NCBI RefSeq assembly: GCF_009807005.1
Contig: NZ_WUBR01000001.1
Location: forward strand, 682,001-746,000
Direction: 5' to 3'
DNA from: Aurantiacibacter rhizosphaerae
GTDB lineage: Bacteria; Pseudomonadota; Alphaproteobacteria; Sphingomonadales; Sphingomonadaceae
Length of the DNA: 64,000 nt
Positions within the stretch are counted from its first letter, which is position 1. Each line of letters begins with the position of its first letter. Positions 16,790 through 51,505 of this stretch are shown piece after piece. The translations under genes and the position numbers were made by a program. The notes under the pieces were generated by a model that saw only the letters and a program-made list of their open reading frames with translations, was not told the origin of the DNA and did no database searches.

Positions 16790-17656
16790 CTAGGCGCGCG
16801 GTGCCTGCCGCCTGTAGCTGAGCGCCTCTGCCACGTGGATACGCCCCACTTCAGGCGCGCCTGCCAGATCGGCGATGGTCCGCGCCACGCGCAGCATGCG
16901 GGTGTAGGCGCGGGCTGACAGGCGCATTTTTTCCGCTGCCTGCATCAGCAGGGTCCGGCCCGCTTCGTCCGGCGTTGCATGCTCCTCCAGTGCGTCTCCA
17001 TCCAGTTCCGCGTTGGAGCGGATACCGCGGGCGGTTTGCAACTTGCGCGCTGCGGCAACGCGCGCGGCAACCTCCGCACTGCCTTCGGCAGGTGGGGGCA
17101 GGGCAAGGTCTGCGGCGCTTACCGGGTCTACTTCCACGTGCAGATCGATCCGGTCCAGCATGGGTCCGGAAACCTTGGACTGGTAATCCACGGCGCATTT
17201 GGGCGCACGGCTGCACGCCAGCGCCGGATCGCCAAGATGGCCGCAGCGGCACGGGTTCATCGCGGCAATCAGCTGCACGCGGGCGGGATAGGCGACATGG
17301 GCATTGGCGCGCGCAACATCCACCTTGCCCGTCTCTAGCGGCTGACGCAGCGAATCGAGCACGGCGCGCTGGAATTCAGGCAGTTCATCCAGGAACAACA
17401 CGCCCAGATGCGCCAGGCTGACCTCGCCCGGACGCACGCGCAGCCCGCCGCCTGTCAGCGCCGCCATGCTGGCCGAGTGATGCGGCGCACGAAACGGGCG
17501 ACTGCGGCTGATCCGGCCGCCTTCCAGCAGGCCCGCCACCGATTGCACCATGCTGACTTCCAGCGCCTCTGCCGGGGAAAGCGGCGGCAAGATGCCGGGC
17601 AGACAGCTGGCCAGCAGGCTTTTGCCCGCACCGGGCGGCCCGTTCATCAAAAGGTT
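16790..17656 (-). pseudogene. comM: comM/yifB, 5'-truncated by the integrated element
   Basis: This is the C-terminal ~290 codons of the Mg-chelatase-like AAA+ protein ComM (YifB), a helicase that promotes branch migration in natural transformation. It retains Walker A NGPPGAGKS, FRAPHHSAS, Walker B LFLDELPEF, the Cys-rich MNPCRCGHLGDP and the C-terminal LSARAYTRMLRVARTIADL. The family is about 500 residues; the N-terminal ~210 residues are missing. Family sequence ends at the Asn codon 17654-17656, where GGHN is expected and GISN is read. The frame runs on to an ATG at 17698 inside foreign DNA, so a short hybrid protein could be made. Confidence 0.88.
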
Positions 17657-17665
17657 GGATATGCC
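17650..17665. other. left junction of the integrated element (candidate att site)
   Basis: comM identity stops after base 17656 (plus-strand AAAAGGTT, then GGATATGCC). The serine recombinase gene lies 600 bp inward, which is the expected distance for an end of a serine-integrase element. The core dinucleotide cannot be fixed without the other end. Confidence 0.55.
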
Positions 17666-17880
17666 TACACTCGCGCTGCTATGAGCTGTGGAAAGCAATC
17701 CGAATGGCAGAAATTGGGCCGTTTGCAGACTGTCCGGTCTCAGCTGAAGAAACCGCCAAAGCTGCCTTTCGAATAGCGACCCAATTTCGTACCTTAAATG
17801 ATAGTTGACCGTTCACAAGAAGTGGTTGCGCCAAGGCGCGTGCAGCTTGCTTCCCGGCTCCGCCGACGCCAATAGGAAGC

Positions 17881-18240: not shown

Positions 18241-18290
18241 CGCCGACCTAGCTGCCTTTCTTCTCTCGGACTGAATCATCGAAGGTTTTG

Positions 18291-20090
18291 ATGGACAAAC
18301 GACATCTGATCGTACCGAAGCGCTGTGCAATCTACACGCGCAAAAGCACAAACAAAAAGTTGGATCACGAGATTAATTCTCTCGTTATGCAGAGAGAAAT
18401 CTCGAGTTCGTACGTCCACAGCCAGCAATACAAAGGCTGGGCAGAACTCCAAGAGAGCTACGATGATGGAGGTCATTCCGGCAGCGGCCTTGAACGGCCA
18501 GCTCTCGCTCGACTGATGCACGATATCGAAGCTGGGCAAATCGACATTGTCGTCGTTTATAAGATTGATCGCCTAACAAGGAGTCTGCTGGATTTCGTCC
18601 GGCTGATCGAGATTTTCGACCGCCGTCAAGTTGCGCTTGTTTCCGTGTCGCAAGCTTTTGATACCTCAGACAGCATGGGACGGATGATCCTCAACATTCT
18701 TCTTACATTTTCGCAATTCGAGAGAGAATTGATTGCGGAACGTGTCCGCGACAGCATCCGAACCCGGAAACGGCACGGCAAGGTACACGGTGGCCTTCCC
18801 CCGTTTGGCTACATCTCAAGCTCGAATGGGCTGCAAGTCGATCTCGCCGAAGCCGAGATGGTGCGCTTTATCTTCGCCGAGTTTCTGCGAACCAAACGTT
18901 ACACCTCGGTGATGACTGCTGTCCGCGAAGCTGGGTTTTGTAGCTCCATAAAGACGTCGAAAAGCGGTCGAGAACGCGGAGGCAAACCGATATCGCCCGG
19001 CACCGTTTATGGCATTCTCCAGAATCCGATCTACGTCGGCGAAATCCGTGGACATGACCGCAACTACGAGGGTGAGCATGAGGCAATAATCAGTTCTGAA
19101 ACGTGGTCAGCCGCTCAGGGCGTAAGCGCGGAACGAAAGAACTGTTCGCCTGGATCAAAAGAAACTGACCACTTTCTAGCAGGGTTGCTGTGGGACGATC
19201 TCGGTCGCCATATGCTTCTCGACCTCAACTGGCATCGCGGCAAAACCTATGCAGCTTATGCATCAAGCAACGCGATGTGGTCGCAGCGAGAGTTTCGCCG
19301 CGCATATCGCGCGAATGCAGACGACCTTGACCGACTGGTGATAGCGAGCGTCAGTCAATTCTTGTCCGACAGATCGGCTTTACGCAAAGCTCTTAAGACA
19401 CTGGGCGTTTTCGGACCGGGATTAGAGTCACTTGCAGAAAAGGGCTCCTTCGCTGCGAAGCGCATCGAGAGTACGCCCTCGCGAGATCGGAAGGAGCTTT
19501 TCACGTCGATCATAGACCGGGTCGAGGTGGGCGAAGATGAGTTGTCCATCACCTTTCGTGCGCTAGAACTGCGTCGTTTTCTCGAGTGGACTGGGAGTTC
19601 GCCCTTTTTCGGTCGTCCCGCTGATTGGCCTTGTAGCGATGCAAAATATGAGCATGTCGTTGCAGTCAGGGCTATCGCGGCAGAGCGATGGCCATCACTA
19701 CATATTTCACCAAGCGATCCCGCATTGTCTGCTAAGCCAAACAAGAAGCTGGTGAGCCTGATCAAAAGCGCGCGAAAGGCGCAGTCGCTTGTCGAGGAAC
19801 ACCGCGAATGGTCGATTGAAGAGCTGGCGAAGAAAAAGGGGTGCCGACCAACCCATTTCGCGAGGCTAATCCGCGTCAATTATCTAGCGCCAGATATCGT
19901 AACGGCAATCCTCGATGGGCGACAGCCTGCGACACTTACCAGAGACCTCATCCTCAGATCCAACGTCCCGACAGACTGGGCTTTGCAACGGAAGCTGTTT
20001 GGCTTCGCTGCACCGGAGAGAGCAATTGAACCCCGCGATTTATTTGGGCGCGGAATGTGGCCGAACGGACCAGGTTCTGTAAGGACCTAA
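18291..20090 (+). CDS. large serine recombinase (site-specific integrase)
   Basis: The 599-residue product has a resolvase catalytic domain with nucleophile Ser19 (AIYTRKSTNKK), VVYKIDRLTRS and the long helix FERELIAERVRDSI. A recombinase DNA-binding domain (GGLPPFGY...GTVYGILQNPIYVGEI) and a zinc-ribbon-like region follow. That ribbon reads LLWDDLGRHMLLD and lacks the usual Cys pair, which is common in alphaproteobacterial relatives. It probably catalyses insertion into and excision from comM. Start at ATG 18291 after GAAGG; a TTG one codon upstream is possible. Confidence 0.93.
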   Translation: MDKRHLIVPKRCAIYTRKSTNKKLDHEINSLVMQREISSSYVHSQQYKGWAELQESYDDGGHSGSGLERPALARLMHDIEAGQIDIVVVYKIDRLTRSLLDFVRLIEIFDRRQVALVSVSQAFDTSDSMGRMILNILLTFSQFERELIAERVRDSIRTRKRHGKVHGGLPPFGYISSSNGLQVDLAEAEMVRFIFAEFLRTKRYTSVMTAVREAGFCSSIKTSKSGRERGGKPISPGTVYGILQNPIYVGEIRGHDRNYEGEHEAIISSETWSAAQGVSAERKNCSPGSKETDHFLAGLLWDDLGRHMLLDLNWHRGKTYAAYASSNAMWSQREFRRAYRANADDLDRLVIASVSQFLSDRSALRKALKTLGVFGPGLESLAEKGSFAAKRIESTPSRDRKELFTSIIDRVEVGEDELSITFRALELRRFLEWTGSSPFFGRPADWPCSDAKYEHVVAVRAIAAERWPSLHISPSDPALSAKPNKKLVSLIKSARKAQSLVEEHREWSIEELAKKKGCRPTHFARLIRVNYLAPDIVTAILDGRQPATLTRDLILRSNVPTDWALQRKLFGFAAPERAIEPRDLFGRGMWPNGPGSVRT

Positions 20091-20293: not shown

Positions 20294-20682
20294 CCCACGC
20301 CATCATTATCGCGGTCCAGGTGACGGGCGTAGCCGGGTTGGCCGCGTCTGACTGGTGCAGCACCAGCAGCACGGGCGGCGTCGCAGTTTCGGTAGTACAC
20401 AGGTCCGCTTTGCTGGCGTGGCGCCTGAGCTGTTTGCTGGCTCGAATTGTTGGCCGCTCGGTGGCAATGACGAGTACCCGTCTTGCGGTCATTGTGGCAG
20501 CCATCGGCTGCAAGCCCACCTCCATGCCCCCAAGCTGGTGACGCAATCAACATCGCTGCGGACACAATGATCGCCAGTATGGCCAAGATTGACAGCATGC
20601 CGAACAATCTTTCAAGCAACTGCTGTGAAGCAGACGGCGATGTGCTGCTTTTTGGATCGCCCCATTCTTTGCTCAACACCAA
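20281..20682 (-). CDS. excalibur-domain exported/membrane protein
   Basis: The 133-residue product has one membrane segment (about 30-50), a GCHNDRKTGTRHCH Cys/His motif and a C-terminal excalibur calcium-binding domain (YYRNCDAARAAGAAP...HLDRDNDGVGCE) with intact DxDxDG and Cys. Excalibur domains often accompany secreted nucleases, and here the next gene upstream in the unit is a thermonuclease. It overlaps that gene by 10 bp, implying co-translation. It is probably extracytoplasmic. Confidence 0.85.
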   Translation of the reverse strand: MVLSKEWGDPKSSTSPSASQQLLERLFGMLSILAILAIIVSAAMLIASPAWGHGGGLAADGCHNDRKTGTRHCHRAANNSSQQTAQAPRQQSGPVYYRNCDAARAAGAAPVRRGQPGYARHLDRDNDGVGCEN

Positions 20683-21020
20683 GGCTCCCTTCTACCGCTC
20701 CAAGTGCGGGCAAGGCCCTCCGATGCAAGCTGAGCCCCGATGGAACGGCCGGACCGATGCAACACGGCTAACGTGCGGCCATACCGATCGGTGCCGGATC
20801 GCTCGATAGCGAAGCTGGCCGTATTCAAGAGGACAATTAACCGGTCACGAGCACGAATGGCCAGCGCACGCTCGTATTCGCATTCTCCGTTGAGCTCCGG
20901 CGTATCGATGTCGGCGATGCGAATTTTCTCGCCTTCAATCCAGATTGTGTCGCCATCGTGGACACAGTGGTCACGGGGTCCAGGGGCACATACGGCGAGA
21001 GCTGCAGCAAGCAAAAGCAT
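20673..21020 (-). CDS. secreted thermonuclease (SNase-like), copy 1
   Basis: The 115-residue product has a short signal peptide and the SNase fold: HDGDTIWIEGEKIRIADIDTPE (calcium Asp, catalytic Arg, Asp and Glu), ending TDRYGRTLAVL...SEGLARTW. Staphylococcal-type nucleases cut DNA and RNA with Ca2+. Key residues are present, so activity is expected outside the cytoplasm. It heads an overlapping unit with the excalibur and DUF6961-like genes. A related gene is at 51149-51505. Confidence 0.85.
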   Translation of the reverse strand: MLLLAAALAVCAPGPRDHCVHDGDTIWIEGEKIRIADIDTPELNGECEYERALAIRARDRLIVLLNTASFAIERSGTDRYGRTLAVLHRSGRSIGAQLASEGLARTWSGRREPWC

Positions 21021-35114: not shown

Positions 35115-36319
35115 ATCTCATGGTGCGCCGGATCGCCTATGGACGATCCGGCCTCATCTCCCACGAGAGCTCTTCGTAGGTCGATTGCCCTGAGCATAAC
35201 GTTTTATACGCAATTGATGGGTTGAAGCATGGGCGGTACACCCAACGCCTGCGACATCGCGACCTTTGCCCGACTGATCAAAGCAGAATGAATAACTGAC
35301 CGCGGCTTCCAAGCCGCCCCTCGCGCGCGCCTGCGCGCGATCCCGACTTGTAGTGGATAGATTGAATGAAGGGGGAGAGAGGAAAAGCGGAAGCCGGGCC
35401 CGGCCCCGTGGCTTCGCCATAACCGGCCGGAAGTTAAGAAATGGTTGAGACCGGCCAGGAAATCCGGGATGAACCTCCGGCTGACCTGGCCGGCCTCAGG
35501 GGGACGCGACGAAAAATCATCGCGCCCCCGGGCGCCTGAAAGCGCCCATGGCAGCCGCTACGGCGGATGCCCCCGACAAGTTCGTTGTCGGGCTTTTCCT
35601 CTTCCTTGTTCGAATTTCGTTTCGACCAGCGGATTGCAAAGTTCTTTCTGCTGTTCGATCTTCATATCACATCTCCTTTTTGCGCCGGCAGGCGTCTGAA
35701 AGCTTTTTCCTTTCACCGACGATTTCCAAAATCGTCGTTCTGCAAAAGATTTAGAAGCGGTCGCTATTGCGCCGGCAAAGCGCGTCCCGGTGGGGTCGCG
35801 CATCGAAGGGCCGCCCGCCGGCGGCGCTTTCCCCGGGCCGGGTCCGCGAATGCGAAGAGGTCCCACAAGAACGCGCCGCTGGTGCGGCTCTATCTAGGGG
35901 ATGACTTTCTTTTCCACGCGCACGGAGAGCGGAAGAGCGCTTCGACGAGGGATGGCGATGGGCTTGCCGCCTTTTCTCCCTTGGCCACGTCACCGCCGAA
36001 GGAGTAGCCAAGACGCGACTGCCGCAAAGCGCACAGCGGGTGTCACCCCACTAACTGGCGGATAACCAAGCTGCCGGCACCTGACGGATGGCGATGGGGA
36101 CGAAACCAACGGCAAGCCTTATCTAAGCACTAGCTGGTGCAGGACGGGGCTCAACGGCCAGATTTGACTTGCGTCTGCAACAGGCGCGTTGATCGGTTAC
36201 ATCTGCATTAGCGCCTAGCTTGATCGCCGCCTTCAATCGATGGCATTTGCCAACCTGTTTGGGTTAGGCTGTCGTCCGTCCTAAAATGCACTTCGTTTTA
36301 TCTCACGGAGTGCTTTACC
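35115..36319. other. 1.2-kb gene-poor region with many inverted repeats
   Basis: No convincing gene is seen; reading frames here are shadows of GC skew. Several hairpins follow one another: CCGGCCAGG/CCTGGCCGG (35451-35492), a GGGGG-CGCGA/TCGCG-CCCCC stem at about 35499-35530, the terminator at 35572, and a 9-bp CGACGATTT/AAATCGTCG stem at 35717-35737. It could encode a structured RNA or be decayed DNA at a block boundary. Confidence 0.5.
35572..35597 (+). terminator. intrinsic terminator inside the structured region
   Basis: CCCGACAA and TTGTCGGG form an 8-bp stem with a 5-base loop, followed by CTTTT. It ends a series of hairpins but no upstream protein gene is near, which suggests a non-coding transcript. 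Confidence 0.6.
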
Positions 36320-37153
36320 TTGGACGACAAAGATAGCGATCGCCCCGCGCCGAACGACGGAAACCTTTCTGATGATGATCAGGAAGTTAAAGCGGTTGGC
36401 GTTGAAGTTCCAGCCAAAAAGACTGGAAGGACCCGTTCCAAAGCGCAGCGCGAACTGGACCGAAAGGCGCGCGCCGCCAAGAAATTTCCGCACGGTCCGG
36501 AAGCGCAGGAGCTCGCCGAACTCGAGCCGACGATGCCACAATCTCTGCGTGACCGGATAGCGCAGAGCGACGATCACGCATTGTGGCGCGAGGGGTTCGA
36601 GTGGATGACCACTGGTTTGCGCATGAAACTGAGGCATGGCAAGCGCTTCTATCCTAGGAACGTGATCAAGGATTTTCGCGCAGCCTATCCCATGATCGTT
36701 CTGCGCGACGAGGATCTCGAGTGGCTCGAAAGATGGCTCGGCTACCTGAAGCTGTCCCCGACTGCGCTGCGCTCCGGGGGCAAATACGGGCCTCGCGTGT
36801 CTATCGTCGATGCGCTGGGAGCGGAGGTGGATATCTATTCTTCGATCGATAACCTCAATTGGCCTCCCACCGAGCAAAGCGTGTCCGCTCCATCGCCTTC
36901 AACTGAAATGTCGACCGGAGATCTCCCGGCGCCGCCGCGCGATATGCCGTTCCGATTCAACCAGCTCACCTCCTCGACGGCAAAAACTTTCTGGCGCGTC
37001 TACTGGAACTCCAGCGATATCCATGAACTTCGCGAGGCAGGCGAGATTTTAGCCTCGGACCCTTGGGCCAGAGACGAGATGCGAACGCTCGGCACCGAGG
37101 CCGAATCCCTTTTTGTCCAGACGATGGCGAAGCTTGGGATACCCCTGCCGTGA
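36320..37153 (+). CDS. hypothetical protein of the mobilization block
   Basis: The 277-residue product has a basic Lys/Arg-rich N-terminus (KKTGRTRSKAQRELDRKARA), a central domain (FEWMTTGLRMKLRHGKRFYP) and a disordered Ser/Pro linker before a C-terminal helix region. No family recognised. The start is TTG at 36320 with CACGGAG 9 bases upstream. It lies just left of the candidate oriT, so it would be first into a recipient if that site is used. The basic tail suggests nucleic-acid binding (inference). Confidence 0.6.
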   Translation: MDDKDSDRPAPNDGNLSDDDQEVKAVGVEVPAKKTGRTRSKAQRELDRKARAAKKFPHGPEAQELAELEPTMPQSLRDRIAQSDDHALWREGFEWMTTGLRMKLRHGKRFYPRNVIKDFRAAYPMIVLRDEDLEWLERWLGYLKLSPTALRSGGKYGPRVSIVDALGAEVDIYSSIDNLNWPPTEQSVSAPSPSTEMSTGDLPAPPRDMPFRFNQLTSSTAKTFWRVYWNSSDIHELREAGEILASDPWARDEMRTLGTEAESLFVQTMAKLGIPLP

Positions 37154-37180
37154 GAATGTCTGACGAAAGGGGTGTAGCTT

Positions 37181-37211
37181 TTAAGCAGGATGGGGGCGGT
37201 ATGACCGCCCC
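37181..37211 (-). other. candidate origin of transfer (oriT)
   Basis: Read on the minus strand, the inverted repeat GGGGCGGT-CAT-ACCGCCCC (37193-37211) is followed directly by CATCCTGC (37185-37192). The nic core of RP4-type (MOBP) oriT is YATCCTG/Y placed just 3' of an inverted repeat, so order and orientation match. It sits between the mobilization gene at 36320 and the MobC-like gene. Nicking there would send the relaxase genes in last, as usual. Confidence 0.6.
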
Positions 37212-37292
37212 GGTCAACATCGTGTCGCTGCGCTTCGTGACGTTGGTTTTTAGCGCCGCCATCCGGCGCGCGGTGAGCGCGGAGCGCATGGG

Positions 37293-37778
37293 ATGAGCAA
37301 AGAGGAGAAGAGCGATAAGCGTAAACGCGCCATCTTGAGTGTCTGTTGCGAGAGCGAGGAACAGAAGCGGCAGATCGAGCGCGCGGCGGGCGGAAATACC
37401 TCGCGATACGTCCTCGAACGGGTTTTGTATGATGATGGATACGAAGACCGTCGCCACGACGTCGCGGCGCGAGTGATGCGCCTAGCCGACGAACTGTCAG
37501 ATGAACTGCACCGGATTGGGGATCTCGTGCGCGCAACCACGGGGTTGCGGCAGGCAGTAGACCGCTCTTCGGCAACTTCAAACGATCGTCGCATTCTTCA
37601 GGCTATCGAAGACATAAGTTCCATCATCTCGAAACTACTGGAGGGCCACGAACAACGGACGCATCTCTCCGGCGAGTTGATCAAAACGATCTTGGATTAC
37701 TCCACAGCCTGCGCCGAATGGGATTTGCGTCAGAAGCGCAAGGCCACCATCCAACAGCGTCGGGCGCGCTCGTCATGA
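37293..37778 (+). CDS. MobC-like relaxosome accessory protein
   Basis: The 161-residue product has a basic N-terminus and a short ribbon-helix-helix-like part (ILSVCCESEEQKRQIERAAG, NTSRYVLERVL), then long helices. It overlaps the relaxase start by ATGA and follows the candidate oriT by 80 bp. This position and shape are those of MobC-type proteins that help a relaxase melt and nick oriT. The assignment is by layout and pattern, not strong sequence identity. Confidence 0.65.
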   Translation: MSKEEKSDKRKRAILSVCCESEEQKRQIERAAGGNTSRYVLERVLYDDGYEDRRHDVAARVMRLADELSDELHRIGDLVRATTGLRQAVDRSSATSNDRRILQAIEDISSIISKLLEGHEQRTHLSGELIKTILDYSTACAEWDLRQKRKATIQQRRARSS

Positions 37779-40492
37779 TCATCAAGATCTGGCGATACCA
37801 AGTGCGGCAAAAGGAAGGCATGCGCCCCCGGACAGCGCAGAAGAACGATTTCGACATCGCCTTTGGATGCGCAAGCTACATTGCCGGACTGAGTATTGAA
37901 CCCGAATGCGTGGAAGCGTTCGAGAATGCCCTGGCTGTTACGGACGGTTCGTCAGATGCGCGGCGGGCAGGTGATTACATCGTGCGCCAGGACGATCACG
38001 ATGTCGCTGGAATTTTGGCCCACGGGCTGGGCGACGGAGACATCGTCGAACAGATCCAGGTGATGGCCGTGGCCGCCGCTTCGGCGGGTCTGGAGTATTT
38101 CTTCCACTATACCTGGTCACACCGTGACGGTGAGATGTTCGCTCCGTACGAACTGGCCCGGCAGAACCGCACCATTCGCCATGTGCTGGAAGCCTCCGGA
38201 TGTCCTTCCCTGGAAGCGTATCATCGCGAAAAACGTCGAGGAAAGTCTCAGATCCATGGCCACGGCAATCTGCTCTCGGTCGATCAAAACGGCGTGGGCA
38301 AGCCGCTGGCGCATTCCTGGTACAGGGAAGCAGCGCATCTGGCCATCGCCGTTGTGGAGCGGGACGATGGCCTGCGCCCCGAACCGATGCGGCGCTACAT
38401 CGCTACCGATGAAGGCGTATTCGGACTGTTTACAGGCGTTCGAGTAGCCGACCGCAGCGGACGGATCCTGCGCGCAACTGATCCGGCCAAGCTCGACCGC
38501 GAAGGCGAAACCCTTCCCGATGGTGGACTGATGGCACGTGCGCGCCGACAGCATCAGGCAGTCATCGAGGGGAACGACGCTCCGGACGGATATGAGCCGG
38601 GCGACCGATGGCCCCTCGAGCGGTTCGCGAAAATCGTGATTGCTCCACGGATCCAGAACGCCCGAAACTGGCAGGAGGTGCATCGCAATCTCGCGCCGCT
38701 CGGAATACGATATACTGTGGTCGGCAATACAGGCCGCCTCATTGCAATCGGCGAGAACGGAGAACCGAGCGGGGAATGGGTCGGTCCAGGCGCCGCCTAC
38801 ACCAATGCGGCTATTGGCAAGTTGAGCAAACGCTTCAAAGCCGATTTCGAGCCCTCGCAGGGCGCGCTCGACTTGCGTCCGCTAACCATGCCAGTATTCA
38901 ACCGACCGGACGATGCGTCGGAAGAGCCTGTCGAAAAGAAAGAACTGGCCAGGCAAGAGACCGCTCAACTCAAGCCGGAGATCGAAGCCATCGAGCGGCA
39001 CCTTGCCGACGAAGGGAGACGTCGACGTAAGGAGATACAGCAAGCCAAGCTAGGGAAGGACCATAATCCGGCCATCGCCGCAGAAGCGGTCCGCCGACGC
39101 CAGGAAGAAGAAACCGTGCGTGAGTTCGCGATCGCGAAAGGCGCGCGGCGAACGCGCAGGACGGCAGCGACCAAGTCGGACGTTGCCGAACGCGTTAGCG
39201 GTTGGCGACCGATCTGCCTGATCATCTGGGGCGCAATCAGGAAGCGCAGAAGAAAGGCTTCGGCCAATCGGCGCGCCGCCCTCGATGCACGTTACGACAT
39301 CAGACCCAAGGAAGGGCATGTCGAATACTGGCTGCGCGGCCCCGCGGGCGACGCCACCCTCGCCTTTGTCGAATCCGATAACCTCATTACGGTCAGGCAT
39401 ACCGCGCGCCGCGTCAATATCGACGCTCTCGAAATCGCGAGCGAGAAGTATGAGCGGATCCGGATCGCAGGAACTGAGCGCGCGATATCGGATAGCATCA
39501 AGATCGCCGCCGAGCTCGACGTGGTCCTGGAGGACAACCAGACCGAGACAGGACTAGAGCATCGAAAAGCCGTTGCAGCGAGCAGAACCGGCAGCATTCT
39601 CGAAGCATCCAGGCGGTTTCACAAAACAACCGATGATCGTGCTCGCACACGGCAGGCGGCACGACGGGATCGGAAAGACCGCGACTTTTTCACGGAGGCG
39701 GCGGTATGCGGTGAAAGCAGCTCCTTGAAGGCGTCGGTCGCCGCGTATTTGAACAGCAATCAGCGTACGCTAGCTCATGCCGACGACACCGAGGTCATCG
39801 AAGCGCGGCGAAGCTTGGACGAGGACATCGATCACGACCGCCTGTTCCTCGCATCATCGCGCTATCACGTCCGTTACCAAGGGCACCATTTTCGATTCCT
39901 AGACGATGTTGCCTTGACGAAGGCGTTCAGCGCGGCGCCCGAGCTTCTCATCGACCGCGAGTTGCAGGACAGGCTGCGCGCCATCGAGGCCATTCAGCTG
40001 GACAAACGACGCATCATCGCTGCTGCGATTGTTGCCGGTGCCGCCTCGATCGGCGACGGCGAACTTAGCATTGATGGCCCGCAGGCTGCCTGGGCGCAGG
40101 ATTTTTGGAAGGCGCAGCGGTCCGACCCGACATTCCAGCGCCTGATTGCCGTCGCATGGGCAAGACCAGACAGATTTACGTATGACGAAAGCGCGCGGCC
40201 TGGAGAGCGAAGCCAAACGCTGGCTTTGCAGAACAATGAGCTGCCGCTTGCAAAGGCCATCGCGCGTCAGATGCTTGCCTACGAGCGGATCAATATCACC
40301 GCCGCCGAAAGCAATCGATCTCCCATGGAAACCGCGAGTATACCTTCGGAAAGCGCTGTTCCCGAGCTCCCATCCGACAAATCTTCCCGCACTGAAACCG
40401 GCATCCCTCATCCTGCCGATGGGACGGATCAAAAACCCCCCGAACGGCCACGACATCTTGGTCCTGCCGGTCCGGACGACTTCGAACGATGA
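37775..40492 (+). CDS. MobA/VirD2-like relaxase, divergent
   Basis: The 905-residue product would nick oriT and pilot single-stranded DNA. Candidate motifs: Tyr68 in RRAGDYIVRQD (motif I), HYTWSHRDGE at 111-120 (motif II) and the metal-binding QIHGHGNLLSVD with His161 and His163, His150 possibly third (motif III). The usual HxDxxHxH spacing is expanded. The C-terminal 600 residues are charged and helical with no recognised helicase or primase. It is coupled to the MobC-like gene by ATGA at the start and to a small membrane protein gene by ATGA at the end. Confidence 0.72.
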   Translation: MIIKIWRYQVRQKEGMRPRTAQKNDFDIAFGCASYIAGLSIEPECVEAFENALAVTDGSSDARRAGDYIVRQDDHDVAGILAHGLGDGDIVEQIQVMAVAAASAGLEYFFHYTWSHRDGEMFAPYELARQNRTIRHVLEASGCPSLEAYHREKRRGKSQIHGHGNLLSVDQNGVGKPLAHSWYREAAHLAIAVVERDDGLRPEPMRRYIATDEGVFGLFTGVRVADRSGRILRATDPAKLDREGETLPDGGLMARARRQHQAVIEGNDAPDGYEPGDRWPLERFAKIVIAPRIQNARNWQEVHRNLAPLGIRYTVVGNTGRLIAIGENGEPSGEWVGPGAAYTNAAIGKLSKRFKADFEPSQGALDLRPLTMPVFNRPDDASEEPVEKKELARQETAQLKPEIEAIERHLADEGRRRRKEIQQAKLGKDHNPAIAAEAVRRRQEEETVREFAIAKGARRTRRTAATKSDVAERVSGWRPICLIIWGAIRKRRRKASANRRAALDARYDIRPKEGHVEYWLRGPAGDATLAFVESDNLITVRHTARRVNIDALEIASEKYERIRIAGTERAISDSIKIAAELDVVLEDNQTETGLEHRKAVAASRTGSILEASRRFHKTTDDRARTRQAARRDRKDRDFFTEAAVCGESSSLKASVAAYLNSNQRTLAHADDTEVIEARRSLDEDIDHDRLFLASSRYHVRYQGHHFRFLDDVALTKAFSAAPELLIDRELQDRLRAIEAIQLDKRRIIAAAIVAGAASIGDGELSIDGPQAAWAQDFWKAQRSDPTFQRLIAVAWARPDRFTYDESARPGERSQTLALQNNELPLAKAIARQMLAYERINITAAESNRSPMETASIPSESAVPELPSDKSSRTETGIPHPADGTDQKPPERPRHLGPAGPDDFER

Positions 40493-40704
40493 CCGCGATC
40501 ATCCTTCTCATCCTTGGTATCCGGCTTGCCGTAAAATGCGACGATCGAGATCGCGCGGTGAGCATGCGTGCCCGCTTCGATTCCTATCGCAATCGGCTCG
40601 CGCTCATCCTCGCGACACCGCATGATTTACGTTACGCAATTCGCTGCCGTCGCCGCGGAGAAAGCTCTCGGTTGAGTGAAGAAACACCCGATCCTTCCCG
40701 ATAA
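40489..40704 (+). CDS. small membrane protein coupled to the relaxase
   Basis: The 71-residue product has one N-terminal membrane segment (AIILLILGIRLAV) and a basic tail. Its ATG overlaps the relaxase stop (ATGA), the best evidence that it is translated. Function unknown; it may help relaxosome docking at the membrane, by position only. Confidence 0.5.
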   Translation: MTAIILLILGIRLAVKCDDRDRAVSMRARFDSYRNRLALILATPHDLRYAIRCRRRGESSRLSEETPDPSR

Positions 40705-40804
40705 GCGCCGGCCGCAACGAACGTCCGGTTGACCGACGATAACAACCAGCGAACCCAGCGACATTCGCTGCCTTCGCTGGAGCCGACAGGAAAGGTTCGA
40801 AATC

Positions 40805-41452
40805 ATGAAAAAGAGGGATTACAAGACGCAGACCGACGTCGATGCGATTGCCAATCGGTTATTGCAAGAGGCCGGCGGCGATCTCGACCAGGTGTATGGG
40901 AACGCCGTTGCTACCGCGCTTGGCATGCCGAAAGGCAACCAGTCGGTCTACGATAAGGTAGAAGACTGGAAGACACGCATGGAAGCGCAGGGCATACGAC
41001 ACGTTCGGCAGGCGCCCGACGGCCTGCGTGATGAACTCGAAAGGCAGCTTCGGGCCGGTGTCGAAGACATGGTGTATGTCGCGCTGGGGCTCACGGGGAA
41101 GACCATCGACGAGGAGCGTCAGCGTAGCGACCAGACCGAAGCCTTGCTGCGCAAAGAAATTGCTCTCCTTGAAAGCAAACTCGTCAGTGAACGGGAAGCC
41201 CGTGCACTCGCGGACGGTAAGGTTGAGACGCTGGCGCAGGACCTGGCGGGTTCCGCCCGGAACATTGCAGCCGAGCAGGAGCGTGCGGATCTCGCAGAGG
41301 CACGGCTCGACGAACTCCGCAACCAACACGATGCCCTGCTCGGAAGGTTGGGCGTAGCATCTGTCCAAGGCGAGGTGGTGAGGGAAACGGCGGCAACTGA
41401 AGAAGCCGAAGATTATCCCATAGACATGTCGCGATACGACTACGACGAATAA
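40805..41452 (+). CDS. KfrA-like coiled-coil DNA-binding protein
   Basis: The 215-residue product has an N-terminal helical domain (TDVDAIANRLLQEAGGDL, NQSVYDKVEDWKTRM) like the KfrA plasmid DNA-binding domain, then a long heptad-rich coiled coil (about 100-180) and an acidic tail ending SRYDYDE. KfrA proteins of plasmids bind DNA and support maintenance and autoregulate. A nested hairpin (CAGCGA/TCGCTG) lies in the leader. Terminator directly after. Confidence 0.62.
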   Translation: MKKRDYKTQTDVDAIANRLLQEAGGDLDQVYGNAVATALGMPKGNQSVYDKVEDWKTRMEAQGIRHVRQAPDGLRDELERQLRAGVEDMVYVALGLTGKTIDEERQRSDQTEALLRKEIALLESKLVSEREARALADGKVETLAQDLAGSARNIAAEQERADLAEARLDELRNQHDALLGRLGVASVQGEVVRETAATEEAEDYPIDMSRYDYDE

Positions 41453-41476
41453 CGCATCCTCCCGAGAGACGAGGAC

Positions 41477-41505
41477 GGGGCGGCCAAGAGGCCGCCCCTT
41501 TTTTA
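41477..41505 (+). terminator. intrinsic terminator after the KfrA-like gene
   Basis: GGGGCGGCC and GGCCGCCCC form a perfect 9-bp stem around AAGA, followed by a T-run. Confidence 0.92.
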
Positions 41506-41574
41506 TTTCCGCAGCAGGAAAACACGACCGCCTGCACGGCGTCATGCGAACCATGAAAAGACTGGAGTGGAGGC

Positions 41575-41652
41575 CTGCCGGGTGAACCGGCAGAGTGAGA
41601 GGAAAAGAGCGTGAACGCTCGGCTCCCGCCTCGCCGGTTCGGCAACGAACCG
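41575..41652 (+). promoter_or_regulatory. three-hairpin structured leader
   Basis: Three short stems stand in a row before the exonuclease gene: CTGCCGG/CCGGCAG with loop GTGAA, GAGCG/CGCTC with loop TGAA, and CGGTTCG/CGAACCG with a GCAA tetraloop. The last ends directly at the AAAGG ribosome site. Such an array suggests post-transcriptional control, by a protein or another RNA. Confidence 0.5.
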
Positions 41653-41666
41653 AAAGGCAAAGCTTC

Positions 41667-42554
41667 ATGAATACCGAGCATCTGAACGCTGACAGCGAGG
41701 CGCTCGCGCAGCGCCTCGCCACCGACGACAATTACCGCGTCCTGCGCGCGGTCCCGCGGCCATATTTCGATGCGCCAAAAGGCGCACCGCCCGATAAGCG
41801 ATGCGTCGCGCTGATCGACTTGGAAAGCACGGGTCTCGATCCCGCGAGCGATCGCATCATGGAATTGGCGATCATGCTCGTCTGGGTGGACGAGAATGGC
41901 GAGGTCGTGAACCATGCCGCGCCTCGCGTCTGGCAGGAAGATCCGGGCGTCATGATCGACCCGCGCATCACCTGGCTTACGTTCCTTGCGAACCATCACC
42001 TGATCGGTAAGTCGATCCCCGACGAAACGGTCCTTGCCATGCTGGACCGCGCGGACTTACTCGTGGCGCATAATTCTTCGTTTGAGATCGCCTGGCTGGA
42101 GCGGCGCTATCCGCAACTCGCCGGTGCCGCCTGGGGATGTTCGATGAAGGACATCGACTGGCTGCGCGCCGGGCTCGATGGGCGCGCCCAGCAATGGCTG
42201 CTGGCGCAGGAAGGCTGGCACACTACCGCCCACCGCGCAGGCGACGATGTCTGGAGCCTTTTCTGGCTTCTCCAGCAGCGCCGCGGCGGTTGGGGCGCCG
42301 ATCCCGAACGCTCGCACTTCAAGCGCCTGCTGGAAGGCGCCGACCGGACCACGACGCTCGTGCGCGCAACCGGCTCGCCGATCGGGAAGAAGGATCTGCT
42401 GAAAGCGAGGCAATATCGCTGGAACGCGGGCGCGAGCGTCTGGGAAAGAGAGATCGAGCCCGAACTGGTCGATCACGAGCGGGCCTGGTTTTATCGCAGC
42501 GGCCTTCCGGAGCCGACGCTCAGCAACATGACCGCACGCGAACGGCACCGCTGA
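41667..42554 (+). CDS. DnaQ-like 3'-5' exonuclease (DEDDh)
   Basis: The 295-residue product has Exo I LIDLESTGLDP (Asp51, Glu53), Exo II LVAHNSSFE and Exo III HRAGDD, the DEDDh set. A C-terminal ~100-residue extension (KKDLLKARQYRWNAG...WEREI) resembles the part that follows the exonuclease in some plasmid-borne DnaQ proteins. It probably degrades single-stranded DNA 3'-5' or proofreads. Start at 41667 by the AAAGG site. It stands between two terminators, so is probably separately expressed. Confidence 0.85.
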   Translation: MNTEHLNADSEALAQRLATDDNYRVLRAVPRPYFDAPKGAPPDKRCVALIDLESTGLDPASDRIMELAIMLVWVDENGEVVNHAAPRVWQEDPGVMIDPRITWLTFLANHHLIGKSIPDETVLAMLDRADLLVAHNSSFEIAWLERRYPQLAGAAWGCSMKDIDWLRAGLDGRAQQWLLAQEGWHTTAHRAGDDVWSLFWLLQQRRGGWGADPERSHFKRLLEGADRTTTLVRATGSPIGKKDLLKARQYRWNAGASVWEREIEPELVDHERAWFYRSGLPEPTLSNMTARERHR

Positions 42555-42590
42555 TCGCAGCTCCCCATCCAACCTTTAACGACCTTCACA

Positions 42591-42616
42591 AAGGCCCGCC
42601 CGATCCTGCGGGCCTT
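42591..42616 (+). terminator. hairpin between exonuclease genes
   Basis: AAGGCCCGC and GCGGGCCTT form a perfect 9-bp stem with an 8-base loop, 36 bp after the exonuclease stop. No T-run follows, so termination may be weak or the hairpin may act in the leader of the next gene. Confidence 0.55.
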
Positions 42617-42641
42617 CGTGCATCTGCAGTGGAGAATTTAC

Positions 42642-43541
42642 ATGACCAATAACACCCACAATGGCGTAACCGATCTCGTCGCGCTGGAGCGCTCGCTCGA
42701 GCGACAGGCGCATGCCGCTATCGCTGCGCACGCACGGGACGAAATAACTGGCCCGCGCGTCTTCCTCGTCTGCGATTTCGAGTACAAATTCCGGCACGAG
42801 GCCCACAGGGGCTGGGCCTACGGCCGTGAACCCAAATACGACCAGCATGGCCGCCGAAAGGAAGAAAAGATTCGCTGGCCTTTCCACACTATCGCCGCCG
42901 CTGCCTGGATGGTGGTGCGGTTCGATGGGCAGAGCGACCTTCCCGAGATCGCCGAACCTGTCGTCATGACGCTCGCTGATCATGCCGAAGTCGACATCCT
43001 GCGAGGGTTGTTCGATGCGCTCAATTCCATTGGACGCGAAGCGCGGATGGTGACCTGGGGCGGAGAGGTCCGCGATCTCGCCGTGCTGCGCTACCAGGCC
43101 TGCCGTCACAGTCTGAACCTGCCAATCCATTTGCGCGACACCTCGCCTCACGCGCGCGAACGGATCGACCTGTGCCGCTCGACCACCGTGCAGGCCGATC
43201 CGGTGCATCTCGACGAGTATGCGGCGGGTGCCGGCATCCCCGCCAAACCTTCGCCGCCCGAAGACATTGGCAAACTGGTCGAGGCCGGCGACTGGGTCGC
43301 GGTCCACGATCACGTCCTCGCCGATGTGCTGACCACTACGATCGTCGCCCTGCGCTGGCTTGCCGCGATGGGCGAGATCGGCTGCGACCGTGAGCGCGCC
43401 GCAATGGCCGTCGCCGATGCGGCGTTGGCGGCCTCACCGGACAGCGCGTTCGTGATCCGCGACTTCAAACCGTGGGCAAGAGACCGGCTGCGTTCGGCGG
43501 CCCTGCGAGGAAATGTCTACCGAATTGAGGAAGCGGCATGA
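42642..43541 (+). CDS. predicted 3'-5' exonuclease (PolB-proofreading-like)
   Basis: The 299-residue product has FLVCDFEYKF (Exo I-type Asp/Glu), a central TWGGEVRDLAVLRY resembling Exo II of PolB-type exonucleases, and a C-terminal HDHVLADVLTTTIV with the last Asp. It looks like a second DEDD exonuclease, not close to the first. GTGGAGAATTTAC precedes the ATG. Its stop overlaps the next gene start (ATGA). Confidence 0.68.
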   Translation: MTNNTHNGVTDLVALERSLERQAHAAIAAHARDEITGPRVFLVCDFEYKFRHEAHRGWAYGREPKYDQHGRRKEEKIRWPFHTIAAAAWMVVRFDGQSDLPEIAEPVVMTLADHAEVDILRGLFDALNSIGREARMVTWGGEVRDLAVLRYQACRHSLNLPIHLRDTSPHARERIDLCRSTTVQADPVHLDEYAAGAGIPAKPSPPEDIGKLVEAGDWVAVHDHVLADVLTTTIVALRWLAAMGEIGCDRERAAMAVADAALAASPDSAFVIRDFKPWARDRLRSAALRGNVYRIEEAA

Positions 43542-44098
43542 CTGCCGTCCGCCGTATGTCGCATCCGCGCGTTTTGGTTTCGGTCTGTATCGATGGTTGC
43601 CGGATGCCAGGCGCAGCGCTGCTCGTGGTGAGGACAGGTCCCAAGCGCGGCGCGAGGTTCGAGCTTGATCGGCGCTCGTTCGGATCCGCCGAAACGCAAC
43701 GCACGGTCATCACTTCTATCGCCGAGCGGATCCCGCGCGATGCGATCGTGCTGGCGCACACAAAGCACTTGTCGGATCATGCGCTGCGACACAGCGCCGT
43801 CCTGGGCCGGCCGCTACCGCCCGATCCCCCGGCGCTGATCGCGCGCTACCGGCCCGATCTCAGGACGATCTGCCTGCCCTGCGAACGACGCGAACTTCTC
43901 GATGCGGCGGCAGCCTATGGCATCGTCGCCGAGAGCGGTCCCATGTGGACGAGGATGGAAACCAGGGCCGCACGCGATGCGCAGGCGCTCTGGCTGCTCT
44001 TCTTGTGGACCCATTGCAGGCCGAAGCAGCGCAACTGGTTGGCCGCGGCATGGGAAGCGTGGCGCGGGATCGAGCGGGCACGCAAGGCGCAGAGCTGA
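43538..44098 (+). CDS. hypothetical protein, possibly a degenerate exonuclease-like fold
   Basis: The 186-residue product begins with a strand-like VLVSVCIDGCRMPG, has VLAHTKHLSDHALR in the place of Exo II, and a C-terminal TRAARDAQALWLLFLW like an Exo III helix. The order recalls the two genes before it, but the catalytic acids are not clear, so activity is doubtful. It is coupled to the preceding gene by ATGA. Confidence 0.55.
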   Translation: MTAVRRMSHPRVLVSVCIDGCRMPGAALLVVRTGPKRGARFELDRRSFGSAETQRTVITSIAERIPRDAIVLAHTKHLSDHALRHSAVLGRPLPPDPPALIARYRPDLRTICLPCERRELLDAAAAYGIVAESGPMWTRMETRAARDAQALWLLFLWTHCRPKQRNWLAAAWEAWRGIERARKAQS

Positions 44099-44202
44099 AA
44101 GCCTGGCAGGATCGCGTCGCCGCAGCGGCGCAGCACCAGCGGATCGGCGGTCGGGATGACTACGATTACGATGAAATAAAGAGGGAGGAAAAGATGACGT
44201 GA
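44050..44202 (+). CDS. possible 50-residue protein overlapping the preceding gene
   Basis: A frame starting at ATG 44050 gives a charged helix and a tail DDYDYDEIKREE, similar to the SRYDYDE end of the KfrA-like protein. It overlaps the previous gene by 49 bp in another frame. Weak evidence; it may be a fossil. Confidence 0.3.
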   Translation: MGSVARDRAGTQGAELKAWQDRVAAAAQHQRIGGRDDYDYDEIKREEKMT

Positions 44203-44286
44203 TCCAGCAGGAGGACGGGAACCGGCACGGCCCGTCGTTCGCGATCCACCGTGCCATCCGCGCTCGCCATCCCGCGGGCGATCAGC

Positions 44287-44320
44287 AGCCGCTTGTCCGC
44301 TCAGGACAGCGGCTTTTTTT
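44287..44320 (+). terminator. intrinsic terminator
   Basis: AGCCGCTTGTCC and GGACAGCGGCT pair with one bulged T around GCTCA, followed by a seven-T run. It ends the preceding exonuclease unit, 22 bp before the start of the next gene. Confidence 0.88.
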
Positions 44321-44342
44321 CATATCAGAAGGACTTATCAAA

Positions 44343-45023
44343 ATGCCCAGGAAGAAAACCACGAGCCAGGCGCTTGTGCCGACCGGAGGAACCAAAACCT
44401 ACGCCATCGCCGGCAAGAAGATCAAAGCGACTCAGATCTTCCACGTTCCAGAACGCCATCCAGCTAGCGACGGACCGTGGCAGCAAGAGCCGGACAAGCT
44501 CGCCTGGGTCGATGCCGCGACCGGCCTGCCTTGTACCATCCTGCGGCAGGAAGACGGGGTGCTGGGGGGCTATACCGGCGTAGGCGAGGATCATCCCCTA
44601 TTCGGGTTCGAGGTCGACGCCGTGCCGGGGGCGCTCGGCATCTGTCCGCACGGCGGCCTCGATTACGCGGCGCCGTGCGAGGACGGGCCGGCGGAGATCA
44701 CCATCTGCCATCCGATCATCGCTGATAGAAAACGCCCGGGCCGTGGCAAAAATAGTGACGATGGTAGCGCTCACCAACCGCTCTGGTGGTTCGGGTTCCA
44801 GTGCGACCGGAACCACGATCTGGTCCCCGGACGTCCGATAAATGCGAACGACCTCGGCGCGGAGAACGGCCGGATCTATCGTGACATCGCATATGTCTAT
44901 TCGCAGACGTGCAGGCTCGCCCGACTGCTCAAGGCCGCCGTCGATGGCACGAGCGACAGCAACACCCAGCTCGATCCGGCATCCCCGCCGCCGGTCGGTC
45001 TCGATCCGGAGCGCCGCCGGTGA
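44343..45023 (+). CDS. hypothetical protein of the mobilization block
   Basis: The 226-residue soluble product has no recognised domain. It begins with a basic stretch, then [20 protein letters not shown] and [18 protein letters not shown], and has [13 protein letters not shown] and several Cys/His. GAAGGACTTATCAAA precedes the ATG. It is followed by a gene coupled by GTGA overlap, so the two probably work together. Confidence 0.6.
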
Positions 45024-45850
45024 GCGCGCGTGAGTGGGACGAGATCCCCTACACCGAACGGTTCAATCCCGCGTTGCCGTGGGGTTACTGGCTCGTCGCC
45101 GAGGGTGAGCTCGATGGCTATCCGCCGCTGACAGACCACACCGGTCAGATCTGGAGCAGCGTACGGGAATACTTTTGGGCGGAGCGGTTGGGCATGGCCG
45201 CGATCCCGCGCAGCGATACCCGCAACCAGGAGCTCGAGTTCATGCTCGCCACGCTGGTCTCGCTCGACCGCCGGGTGATCTACACCGAGGAACGCGCGGT
45301 CGACCTGTTCGGCAGTTGGGACCGGAGCAGGCATTACATGAGCTGGCTCGCTGGCCACAAGCTGCTGATGCCGCAGCCGGAAGCCGGTCTCGACGCCGAA
45401 CTGTCGCCCGAGGGACGTGCAGTTCTGGTGATGCTCGCTTCCACCCGGAGTCCCGATGCGGCGCCGCTCGCGATCGGCCTGCCGACGCTCAATTGGTTCC
45501 ACGGCCTCACCAGCACGCCCGATAAGGACGAGCGCGATCGCCTGATCGCGGCGCAGGAGCGTGCGACCGTGCACCTGCAATACCGGTTCGGGCGCAAAAG
45601 CATCGCCGGGCAGCCGGCCATCGTGCTCGCGGGTGTCGGCCTCGGACCGAACATTCCGCTCACCCGCGTGCTCTGGTCCGTCACGTTCGCGGACGACTAC
45701 GCGCGCGACAGAATGCTCTTCTGGCTCCACGAGCGCATCGACCGCTGGCCTGACTGGGGAGAGCTTGCCTATCGGCAAGGCGCCCGGGCGTTGAGTGAGC
45801 GGCTGATGCAGCTCGCGTTCGCCGACAGGGAGATTGGTGGCGGCGGCTAA
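45020..45850 (+). CDS. hypothetical protein coupled to the preceding gene
   Basis: The 276-residue product starts at GTG 45020, overlapping the previous stop by GTGA. It contains WDEIPYTERFNPALPWGYWL and a helical centre, and the C-terminal half contains DDYARDRMLFWLHERIDRWP. No family recognised and no membrane segment. It is the last gene of the mobilization block before a terminator and a drop in GC. Confidence 0.6.
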   Translation: MSAREWDEIPYTERFNPALPWGYWLVAEGELDGYPPLTDHTGQIWSSVREYFWAERLGMAAIPRSDTRNQELEFMLATLVSLDRRVIYTEERAVDLFGSWDRSRHYMSWLAGHKLLMPQPEAGLDAELSPEGRAVLVMLASTRSPDAAPLAIGLPTLNWFHGLTSTPDKDERDRLIAAQERATVHLQYRFGRKSIAGQPAIVLAGVGLGPNIPLTRVLWSVTFADDYARDRMLFWLHERIDRWPDWGELAYRQGARALSERLMQLAFADREIGGGG

Positions 45851-45859
45851 AGCGAGACT

Positions 45860-45893
45860 GGGGCGGCCTAGCAAGGGTTGCCCCTTCTTTTTT
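45860..45893 (+). terminator. probable intrinsic terminator
   Basis: GGGGC and GCCCC with imperfect inner pairing (GCC/GG) are followed by TTCTTTTTT. It marks the right end of the mobilization block. Confidence 0.65.
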
Positions 45894-46331
45894 GCATCCG
45901 CATTCGCCAGCCCGCCCCTAAATGTCTGCCTCGCGCCCTCATCCCGGTCATAGGGAGTGCCGAATGCGGCGCGCAAAAGCGGACGAAGATGTCGGGTCAC
46001 AGCAATGTCCGCTTACGGGGCATTCCGGGCAGCCCTTGGATGTCGGGGATTGGGGTGGAAAGCGGACATTAAAGCGATCACGTTTTGGAACGTCTTTCAA
46101 CGACCCAGTTGCGTAAGGGCACCTGCACTTGCCCAGCACCAATTTGAGAAAGTGTTTGTAGCTTGTAAGCAGAGGGTGTTTTCTATAAACGAAAACATAA
46201 TTGAGCGAATGGGGTTGGATGGCCAACGAATTGGCGATAGAAAATGAACGCACAGAAAGAGTTCATATCATTATTGATAATCTGCTGCGAAAAATTTTCG
46301 CTTTGCTCATTTACTCACGATCGAATAAATC
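45894..46331. repeat. gene-less interval with an inverted repeat
   Basis: AATGTCCGCTT (46004-46014) and AAGCGGACATT (46060-46070) are perfect 11-bp inverted copies 45 bp apart, next to ATTGGGGTGGAAAG. Degenerate relatives of the latter occur at about 34481 and 48000, so it may be a dispersed intergenic repeat. No gene is seen; the end of the interval is AT-rich and probably holds the promoter of the LuxR-type gene. Confidence 0.5.
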
Positions 46332-51010: not shown

Positions 51011-51155
51011 TCTCCAGCCTTTGCCTGAAACGTACCAGCGCTTCCTCGGCATCGAGGGTTACATGGAGCAACTCTTCGCCACAGGTCCCGCTTTGCAAAT
51101 GCTCAAGCCACGAGCGCACGATTTGCGCATCCTCATCGTTTCGGGTGTTCAGCAC
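51003..51155 (-). CDS. 50-residue protein in the nuclease unit
   Basis: GTG at 51155 overlaps the thermonuclease stop; GGAGGG lies about 7 bases before it, inside that gene. The product is acidic and helical (DEDAQIVRSWLEHLQSG, LDAEEALVRFRQRLENA). No family recognised. Its stop overlaps the start of the next small gene. Confidence 0.55.
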   Translation of the reverse strand: MLNTRNDEDAQIVRSWLEHLQSGTCGEELLHVTLDAEEALVRFRQRLENA

Positions 51156-51505
51156 AAAGGCTCCCTCCGCTTGGTCCGAGTTCGCGCTAGCCCCTCCCGG
51201 ACAAGCTGATCGCCTATCGAACCCTGACTATTCGCGACAAACGCCCGCTTCCGACCATAGCGATCCTCGCCCTGTCTCCGGATCTCGAAAGTTTCGGCAT
51301 TGAGAAGCTGGGTGAGGCGATAGCGCGCCCTTACAGCAAGCTCGCTTTCATATCGGCCTTGCCCGTCCAGTTCCGGCGTGTCGATATCGGCAATCCGGAT
51401 CCGCTCTCGATCGACAATGAAGCTATCGCCATCGTGGACGCAGATAATTCGAACGCCTTCAGCAGCGCAGACGGCATACGCAAGCGAGATGGCCGCGAGG
51501 ATCAT
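51149..51505 (-). CDS. secreted thermonuclease (SNase-like), copy 2
   Basis: The 118-residue product has a signal peptide (about 1-14) and the SNase core: HDGDSFIVDRERIRIADIDTPE and EDRYGRKRAFV...REGLARTR. The catalytic Asp/Arg/Glu positions match copy 1, so activity is expected outside the cytoplasm. Its ATG overlaps the stop of the 40-residue membrane gene (ATGA). The two copies share about half their residues by eye, so they are old paralogues or separate acquisitions. Confidence 0.85.
   Translation of the reverse strand: MILAAISLAYAVCAAEGVRIICVHDGDSFIVDRERIRIADIDTPELDGQGRYESELAVRARYRLTQLLNAETFEIRRQGEDRYGRKRAFVANSQGSIGDQLVREGLARTRTKRREPLC

Follow-up and report, generated by a model that had tools for sequence, protein, structure and literature searches.

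Candidate origin of transfer, mobC and relaxase gene

We analysed 64,000 nucleotides of the Aurantiacibacter rhizosphaerae genome (contig NZ_WUBR01000001.1, positions 682,001 to 746,000 of the forward strand; this whole stretch is called the window), in which a candidate origin of transfer (oriT) lies between a gene for a 277-residue protein (the pre-oriT gene) and the overlapping genes of a MobC-like accessory protein and a 905-residue relaxase-like protein (Table 1). On the minus strand, read from 37211 down to 37185, a perfect 8-bp inverted repeat with a 3-nt loop runs without a gap into a nick core (GGGGCGGT-CAT-ACCGCCCC-CATCCTGC); on the plus strand the same parts appear as GCAGGATG (37185-37192), GGGGCGGT (37193-37200), the loop ATG (37201-37203) and ACCGCCCC (37204-37211). 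The original prediction had placed such a repeat and an RP4-type nic core on this strand, ahead of the two genes, and both the letters and the open reading frames bear it out. The core fits the consensus (C/T)ATCCTG(C/T), stated for MOBP nick sites in PMC3772185, and we infer cleavage of the minus strand at CATCCTG/C, between plus-strand coordinates 37186 and 37185.

The window contains 10 YATCCTGY sites (the mean over 100 versions from a first-order Markov model is 7.05). At one of these 10, and nowhere across the 100 Markov versions, the core is preceded at a distance of 0-1 nt by a perfect Watson-Crick stem of 7 or more bp. With the same strict pairing, three other stretches of the same genome contained no such site and seven of nine relatives contained exactly one; the other two (L023 and L024) have none because of one G-T pair in their stem. 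DNA folding of the window's single strand also contained this hairpin. A second conserved element, absent from the original prediction, adjoins it and comprises a near-invariant 17-bp core (minus strand ACGAAGCGCAGCGACAC, 37222-37238; 17-18 bp across loci) between the inverted arms CAACGTC and GATGTTG. The 3.4-Mb genome has a single copy of this core, and the element is most likely a binding site, as yet putative, of MobC as a ribbon-helix-helix (RHH) accessory protein.

MobC (161 residues) was assigned to the NikA/TraJ-like relaxosome accessory proteins of RHH type by profile similarity. PF21983 (NikA-like) weakly matched four of eight members of the MobC family at E ≤ 1 (best 6.7e-4) and gave no match to the window's own protein at that limit, and a single hhalign comparison of the family profile with R751 TraJ and five partners aligned the ribbon-helix-helix part (probability 95.4, E 1.9e-8).

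The relaxase gene begins with the ATG at 37775, which overlaps the mobC stop codon in the sequence ATGA, and ends with the stop codon at 40490-40492. In the alignment, Tyr68, Ser115, His150, His161 and His163 share columns with Tyr22, Ser74, His109, His116 and His118 of R751 TraI, of which we take Tyr22, Ser74 and His116 to be catalytic. The Tyr68 column and the three His columns are unchanged in 11 of 11 rows, and the Ser115 column holds Ser in 10 of 11, with Ala in L025 (Ala is also found in L026 and L027). The proposal of Tyr68 as nucleophile is thereby strengthened. Tyr35 was considered in its place, being invariant in the family and aligned by hhalign to a Tyr of the conventional relaxases, and was set aside in favour of Tyr68 because R751 TraI has no counterpart of it and has its Tyr22 in the Tyr68 column. 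The HGHGN motif originally read as the metal site is present but holds only the second and third His (H161 and H163), the first being H150. The remark that motif spacing differs from known families stands, since H150 and H161 are 11 residues apart as against 7 in TraI, a longer first spacing of motif III that is common to the window, L020 and L021.

Comparison with mobilisation (MOB) relaxases, suggested with the original prediction, was made with hhalign against three conventional MOBP relaxases and gave a probability of 99.7 and an E-value of 3.9e-25 for the family profile, and 97.8 and 7.8e-13 for the window relaxase alone, each from a single comparison; identity of the window N-terminus to R751 TraI is 21%. 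PF03432 (Relaxase) matched six of nine N-termini of the family (best 5.2e-8), NF041893 (the TraI/MobA(P) equivalog) matched four of the five members of alignment A1 (best 2.2e-14) as well as residues 281-468 of the window protein (E 1.3e-8), and LPD7 matched the window protein below its cut-off. In an unrooted tree of 20 rows, a branch supported at 100/99 split 12 family rows from 8 conventional rows, with R751 TraI as a long branch; such a tree is compatible with a place of the family inside MOBP or beside it.

Searching the PDB by sequence returned one unrelated weak match only (2k4v, E 0.15), which was discarded. A search of 72,556 plasmids with the window relaxase gave nothing at E ≤ 1e-5, on which ground a plasmid location was rejected, and no match was found in viral contigs. 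Its relatives did reach plasmids: L027 matched seven records, all annotated as relaxases, and L023 matched 185, of which the 15 listed are all annotated TraI/MobA(P); none of these covered 80% of the query. In four annotated plasmid stretches around such matches, the start of traI is likewise overlapped by a small gene for mobilisation or of RHH (CopG) type. Among the results listed from the open-licence literature, no paper described this relaxase/oriT family.

Related loci and conservation of the candidate oriT

A relaxase search of 396 genomes of the order matched eight, namely the window's own genome, four with long matches (G030, G033, G250 and G257) and three with short matches (G165, G172 and G237), whose relaxases we treated as conventional. 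A scan of genome contigs yielded nine loci, every one from Sphingomonadales. The 11 loci gathered by relaxase are the window, L020-L028 and L013, after excluding L011, L012 and L014 as the same elements as L027, L024 and L028 respectively. Three loci found by their oriT pattern (L074, L075 and L076) bring the total to 14; since these were found through oriT, it is the presence of a relaxase that puts them to the test. Kinship limits the independence of the loci, with L013, L023, L024 and L076 closely related and further pairs of kin formed by L020 and L075, by L025 and L027, and by the window and L021.

All 11 relaxase-gathered loci carry the core in the same place, 0-1 nt from a 7-8-bp stem with a 3-nt loop, and the same arrangement is found in L074-L076. 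CATCCTG(C/T) and its repeat, on whose conservation at homologous loci the original prediction had been staked, are thus kept in 11 of 11, and the stems vary in sequence while their pairing is kept. This conservation of the core, together with compensatory changes in the stem, supports a MOBP-type oriT.

We assessed co-variation on alignment A3 (nine loci) with two hand-written helices of 7 pairs each. Across both helices, 94.3% of 123 cells were paired, against 80.2 ± 1.6% in shuffles, which do not keep relatedness, and 37-51% in slid versions, which do keep it and over which the structure is favoured by having been drawn from the same sequences. Changes on both sides were seen in 11 of 14 pairs, and the covariation score was 0.556 against 0.252. 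Taken separately, the nick hairpin had 98.4% of cells paired and both-sided changes in 6 of 7 pairs, and the arms of the second element 90.0% and 5 of 7. L074 stands outside this count; its nick stem reads GTGTGGG-GCA-CCCACAC, and its second arms (CGCCGTC/GATGGCG) pair at 7 of 7 positions with one G-T.

For a forward test we searched 397 genomes of the family with the pattern AGCGACACGN{15,32}CATCCTG, which holds no stem or protein information, and obtained 65 places in 56 genomes. Ten of these places (9 genomes) had a stem of at least 7 bp, all with 3-nt loops, and the other 55, with stems of 6 bp or less, were set aside. Three of the ten were new loci (L074, L075 and L076; in G599, as a second copy in G532, and in G446), and all three have a relaxase gene and mobC beside the oriT. 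A stricter oriT pattern was found in none of 384 other genomes drawn from the class.

The hairpin sits in the leader of mobC and the relaxase gene, and autoregulation at oriT is frequent among relaxosome proteins, so it might serve mainly as an mRNA leader or operator controlling the expression of the two genes instead of as an oriT. We regard this as very improbable, in that the invariant part is the exact MOBP nick core, on the predicted strand and with its stem adjoining, an arrangement that R751 shares with conventional MOBP loci of this bacterial family.

Gene content and setting of the module

The pre-oriT gene, mobC and the relaxase gene are found in 14 of 14 loci. Beyond the 71-residue open reading frame that overlaps the relaxase stop codon, six more genes follow, the last ending near 45.85 kb and two of the six being exonuclease-like (Table 1). 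The pre-oriT gene had no Pfam, NCBIfam or PHROGs match at the limits used. Some absences coincide with contig ends, which cut L026 at the DnaQ-like gene, and L024 and L026 at the second exonuclease gene and at the 225- and 313-residue genes; the latter two were also not found in L028.

Table 1. Features of the module in the window, and PADLOC matches beside related loci
Feature	Position	Strand	Basis or occurrence
Module extent common with Qipengyuania sp. ABI-127-1	35229..45907		91.3% DNA identity over 10.7 kb
Pre-oriT gene, 277 aa	36320..37153	+	relative at same position in 14/14 loci
Candidate nick core CATCCTGC	37185..37192	minus	matches MOBP consensus
Candidate oriT hairpin, 8-bp arms and 3-nt loop	37193..37211	minus	sequence and co-variation
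Second conserved oriT element	37215..37245	minus	co-variation
mobC, 161 aa	37293..37778	+	profile similarity
Relaxase gene, 905 aa	37775..40492	+	profile comparison, TraI columns, tree
71-aa open reading frame	40489..40704	+	relatives in L074 (63%) and L075 (46%, partial); 3 loci searched
215-aa gene	40805..41452	+	5/14 loci (window, L020, L021, L074, L075)
DnaQ-like (RNase_T) exonuclease gene	41658..42554	+	PF00929 E 1.2e-4 (just below cut-off), PHROG 192 E 1.5e-15; 13/14 loci
3'-5' exonuclease gene, related to PolB exonuclease	42642..43541	+	PF10108 E 1.7e-11 (above cut-off); 12/14 loci
186-aa gene	43538..44098	+	7/14 loci
225-aa gene (PHROG 2164)	44346..45023	+	11/14 loci
313-aa gene	44909..45850	+	11/14 loci
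CBASS	L021 19081-21932		PADLOC
ThsB-type TIR	L022 18404-18988		PADLOC
Type IIG	L023 4683-8207		PADLOC
Type IIG	L025 38-1969		PADLOC
Type III	L027 3755-8058		PADLOC
Type I	L028 17906-19477		PADLOC
DrmA/DrmB	L075 65-3537		PADLOC

Identity to L021 stops at window positions 35229 and 45907, and the left end truncates a gene that L021 has in full. No shared ends were found for the window, and a sharp-looking right end was seen only in the Q. citrea-type element. The relative L020 carries a tyrosine integrase just upstream of the module. L074 and L021 align at the DNA level over 6.0 kb downstream (83%) and 1.3 kb upstream (76%), with no alignment over L074 7263-11082, which holds the pre-oriT gene, the oriT, mobC and most of the relaxase gene; between L074 and the window, the exonucleases are 90% and 83% identical and the relaxases 36%. 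This pattern looks like the exchange of a specificity block, in one case.

We also noted a conserved stretch with no convincing gene at the left of the module (window 35302-35902), which recurs inverted at its right in L025 (10892-11489) and L027 (16873-17461) with 72-73% identity. A HUH Rep-like gene, recognised by eye from its HxHW and YxxKG motifs, is found at the element's right end in L023 (17226-18074), L076 (17855-18703), L013 (2939-3787), L025 (12398-13147) and L027 (18382-19089), and the sequence shared by L023, L013 and L076 ends about 160-180 bp past it. Two of these genes tested had no Pfam match, and no match was found in the window's genome (G000), where an empty answer is weak evidence; the gene is possibly a non-canonical integrase or replicase.

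PADLOC was run on ten neighbours chosen by eye for a defence-like look, a choice that shows presence and not enrichment, and matched all ten, in seven loci. Beside the window's own module no anti-phage defence genes were identified.

In the window, the C-terminal half of comM (16790-17698, identified by eye) adjoins a serine recombinase gene (18288-20087), and the N-terminal half, at G000:C1:803 kb, has beside it a serine recombinase that differs from the first; the module therefore lies inside an island of about 103 kb that splits comM and that also holds exopolysaccharide genes (by eye). The entire island might be the mobile unit, excised by the serine recombinases at its ends and transferred by this oriT and relaxase. 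The split of comM, with a recombinase at each half, fits that account, as does CAACCTTTT, seen by eye at both breakpoints (a scripted search that used words of at least 10 did not list it). We consider it rather unlikely, since the difference between the two recombinases points to more than one insertion, and neither was found around the relatives, where stretches of about 12-23 kb would miss distant island ends.

The other comM breakpoint region corresponds to L036 15289-17704, and near this N-terminal end of the island a 59-residue piece (L036 13998-14168) is 73% identical to the tyrosine integrase of L020 (L020 7555-8184). Two similar thermonuclease-like open reading frames (by eye) lie on the minus strand of the window about 30 kb apart (20673-21020 and 51149-51505).

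A conjugative system belonging to the module itself was also considered. The sole PF03135 (VirB4) match of the genome lies in a VirB-like cluster at C3:351.8 kb, and PF02534 (coupling protein) matched only at C1:521-550 kb (521-523 and 548-550 kb), all outside the island; with PF03135 only in the C3 cluster and PF02534 only beside MOBF-like sequence, this candidate was rejected. The two PF02534 stretches adjoin MOBF TraI-like sequence (by eye) at C1 ~518-524 kb (L041) and 548-553 kb (L042, L043).

Predicted working and comparison with known systems

We put at about 0.9 the probability that a mobilisable chromosomal element, dependent on a helper, has its DNA-processing module here, with an oriT and relaxase that we infer to work like an IncP-type pair. 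MobC would bind the oriT, probably at the second element, and recruit the relaxase, which would bind the hairpin in single-stranded form. Tyr68 would then attack the predicted nick site on the minus strand, with a metal held by H150, H161 and H163, and the relaxase would remain on the new 5' end. The nicked strand, running toward lower coordinates, would be unwound, and a conjugative element resident in the same cell would supply the coupling protein and type IV secretion channel through which it passes into the recipient. Because of the nick polarity, which is alike in R751 relative to traJ-traI, mobC and the relaxase gene would enter the recipient last.

Besides the advantage of the drawn structure over its slid versions, several results weigh against the assignment to a mobilisable element. 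The N-terminus of the window relaxase had no PF03432 match at E ≤ 1, and its NF041893 match scored 34.3 bits against a cut-off of 250; being below the thresholds of both, the protein is not placed in either family and is best called a divergent MOBP-class branch. The AlphaFold model of its N-terminal domain (pLDDT 74.8) retrieved no relaxase among the best 50 of 1320 PDB matches (best E 1.2e-2). The search for a relaxase fold, also suggested at the outset, gave a mixed picture, for with the model of the relative L028 (pLDDT 79.8) the first two PDB matches were the MobA relaxase 2NS6 (probability 1.00, E 1.0e-3, target TM 0.46) and the NES relaxase 4HT4 (probability 0.99, E 5.4e-3, target TM 0.52), with MobM relaxases and AAV Rep further down; the profile comparison is the stronger support. 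One of the five co-variation measures, the number of further pair types, did not exceed the shuffles (15 against 14.3, reached by 219 of 500). The stem of the second element does not appear when the window's single strand is folded to minimum energy, and we therefore read this element as a probable duplex site whose arms are symmetric. Scans of the module genes with Pfam, NCBIfam and PHROGs showed no integrase, and neither PF03135 nor PF02534 had a match in the island (other type IV secretion families were not searched). With no recognised coupling protein, VirB4 or integrase in the module, the machinery of a helper is most likely used.

The missing PF03432 match, the insertion in motif III, the left end cut inside a gene whole in L021 and the patchwork-like look of the island (by eye) would also suit a decayed, non-functional mobilisation module in a composite island, whose oriT and relaxase are relics and whose divergent motif III and truncated left end came from decay. 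That is improbable, given that the 905-residue frame is open, that the catalytic columns and the oriT are intact, and that Citromicrobium L020 (best segment 58% identical) and L021 have the motif III insertion too.

At somewhat less than even odds, we propose tentatively that the loci form a distinct Sphingomonadales family of mobilisable modules, in which two dedicated 3'-5' exonucleases join an RHH protein and a relaxase derived from MOBP as the transfer core. The pre-oriT gene, two-part oriT, mobC and relaxase gene would be exchanged as a specificity block between elements otherwise alike, some members ending at a putative HUH Rep-like gene that could act as a non-canonical integrase and several lying beside anti-phage defence systems. 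For these chromosomal modules, whose relaxases in part escape the Pfam model, the analysis predicts a transfer origin and places its nick site to the base, and the near-fixed 17-18-bp motif between co-varying arms offers a way to study the co-evolution of accessory protein and oriT. Since the oriT pattern alone led to three new relaxase loci, it can serve as a probe for modules of this sort, several of them neighbours of phage-defence genes.

Conventional MOBP relaxases of the same bacterial family (L015-L017, so classed by their motifs and their place in the tree) share with the window an HGDT/HCDT..H.H motif III and a CATCCTGC core after an upstream inverted repeat. Their similarity to the window's relaxase family is mainly at profile level, and the 17-18-bp motif is absent from their oriT stretches (by eye). 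Integrative and mobilisable elements with MobP relaxases (PMC5704250) resemble the window in bringing their own relaxase and accessory factor without a mating apparatus, whereas the window module has no recognised integrase and has a conserved exonuclease pair. Of the features that define such elements, an own relaxase and oriT without an own transfer apparatus (PF03135 and PF02534 searched) were found, and an own integrase with attachment sites was not, among the module genes scanned. Tfs4 VirD2 of Helicobacter pylori (PMC3772185) is likewise a divergent relaxase outside the established MOB clades, encoded in a chromosomal island and still using ATCCTG next to an inverted repeat; its cluster holds type IV secretion genes and its nicking was measured, in both respects unlike the window's module.

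The IncP plasmid R751 (MOBP) differs in that the window relaxase, with its low N-terminal identity, belongs to a separate clade, that the gene on the other side of the oriT is co-directional with mobC, in contrast to the divergent TraK, that the window has the extra near-invariant motif with co-varying arms, and that no tra/trb genes were seen beside its oriT. In both, an inverted repeat precedes the CATCCTGC core, which lies on the other strand from the RHH and relaxase genes and points away from them; both also have the RHH protein itself and a relaxase in which the columns of Tyr22, Ser74 and the three His are kept. The candidate system looks like an established kind of DNA transfer, new in its detail, on a separate MOBP-class branch.

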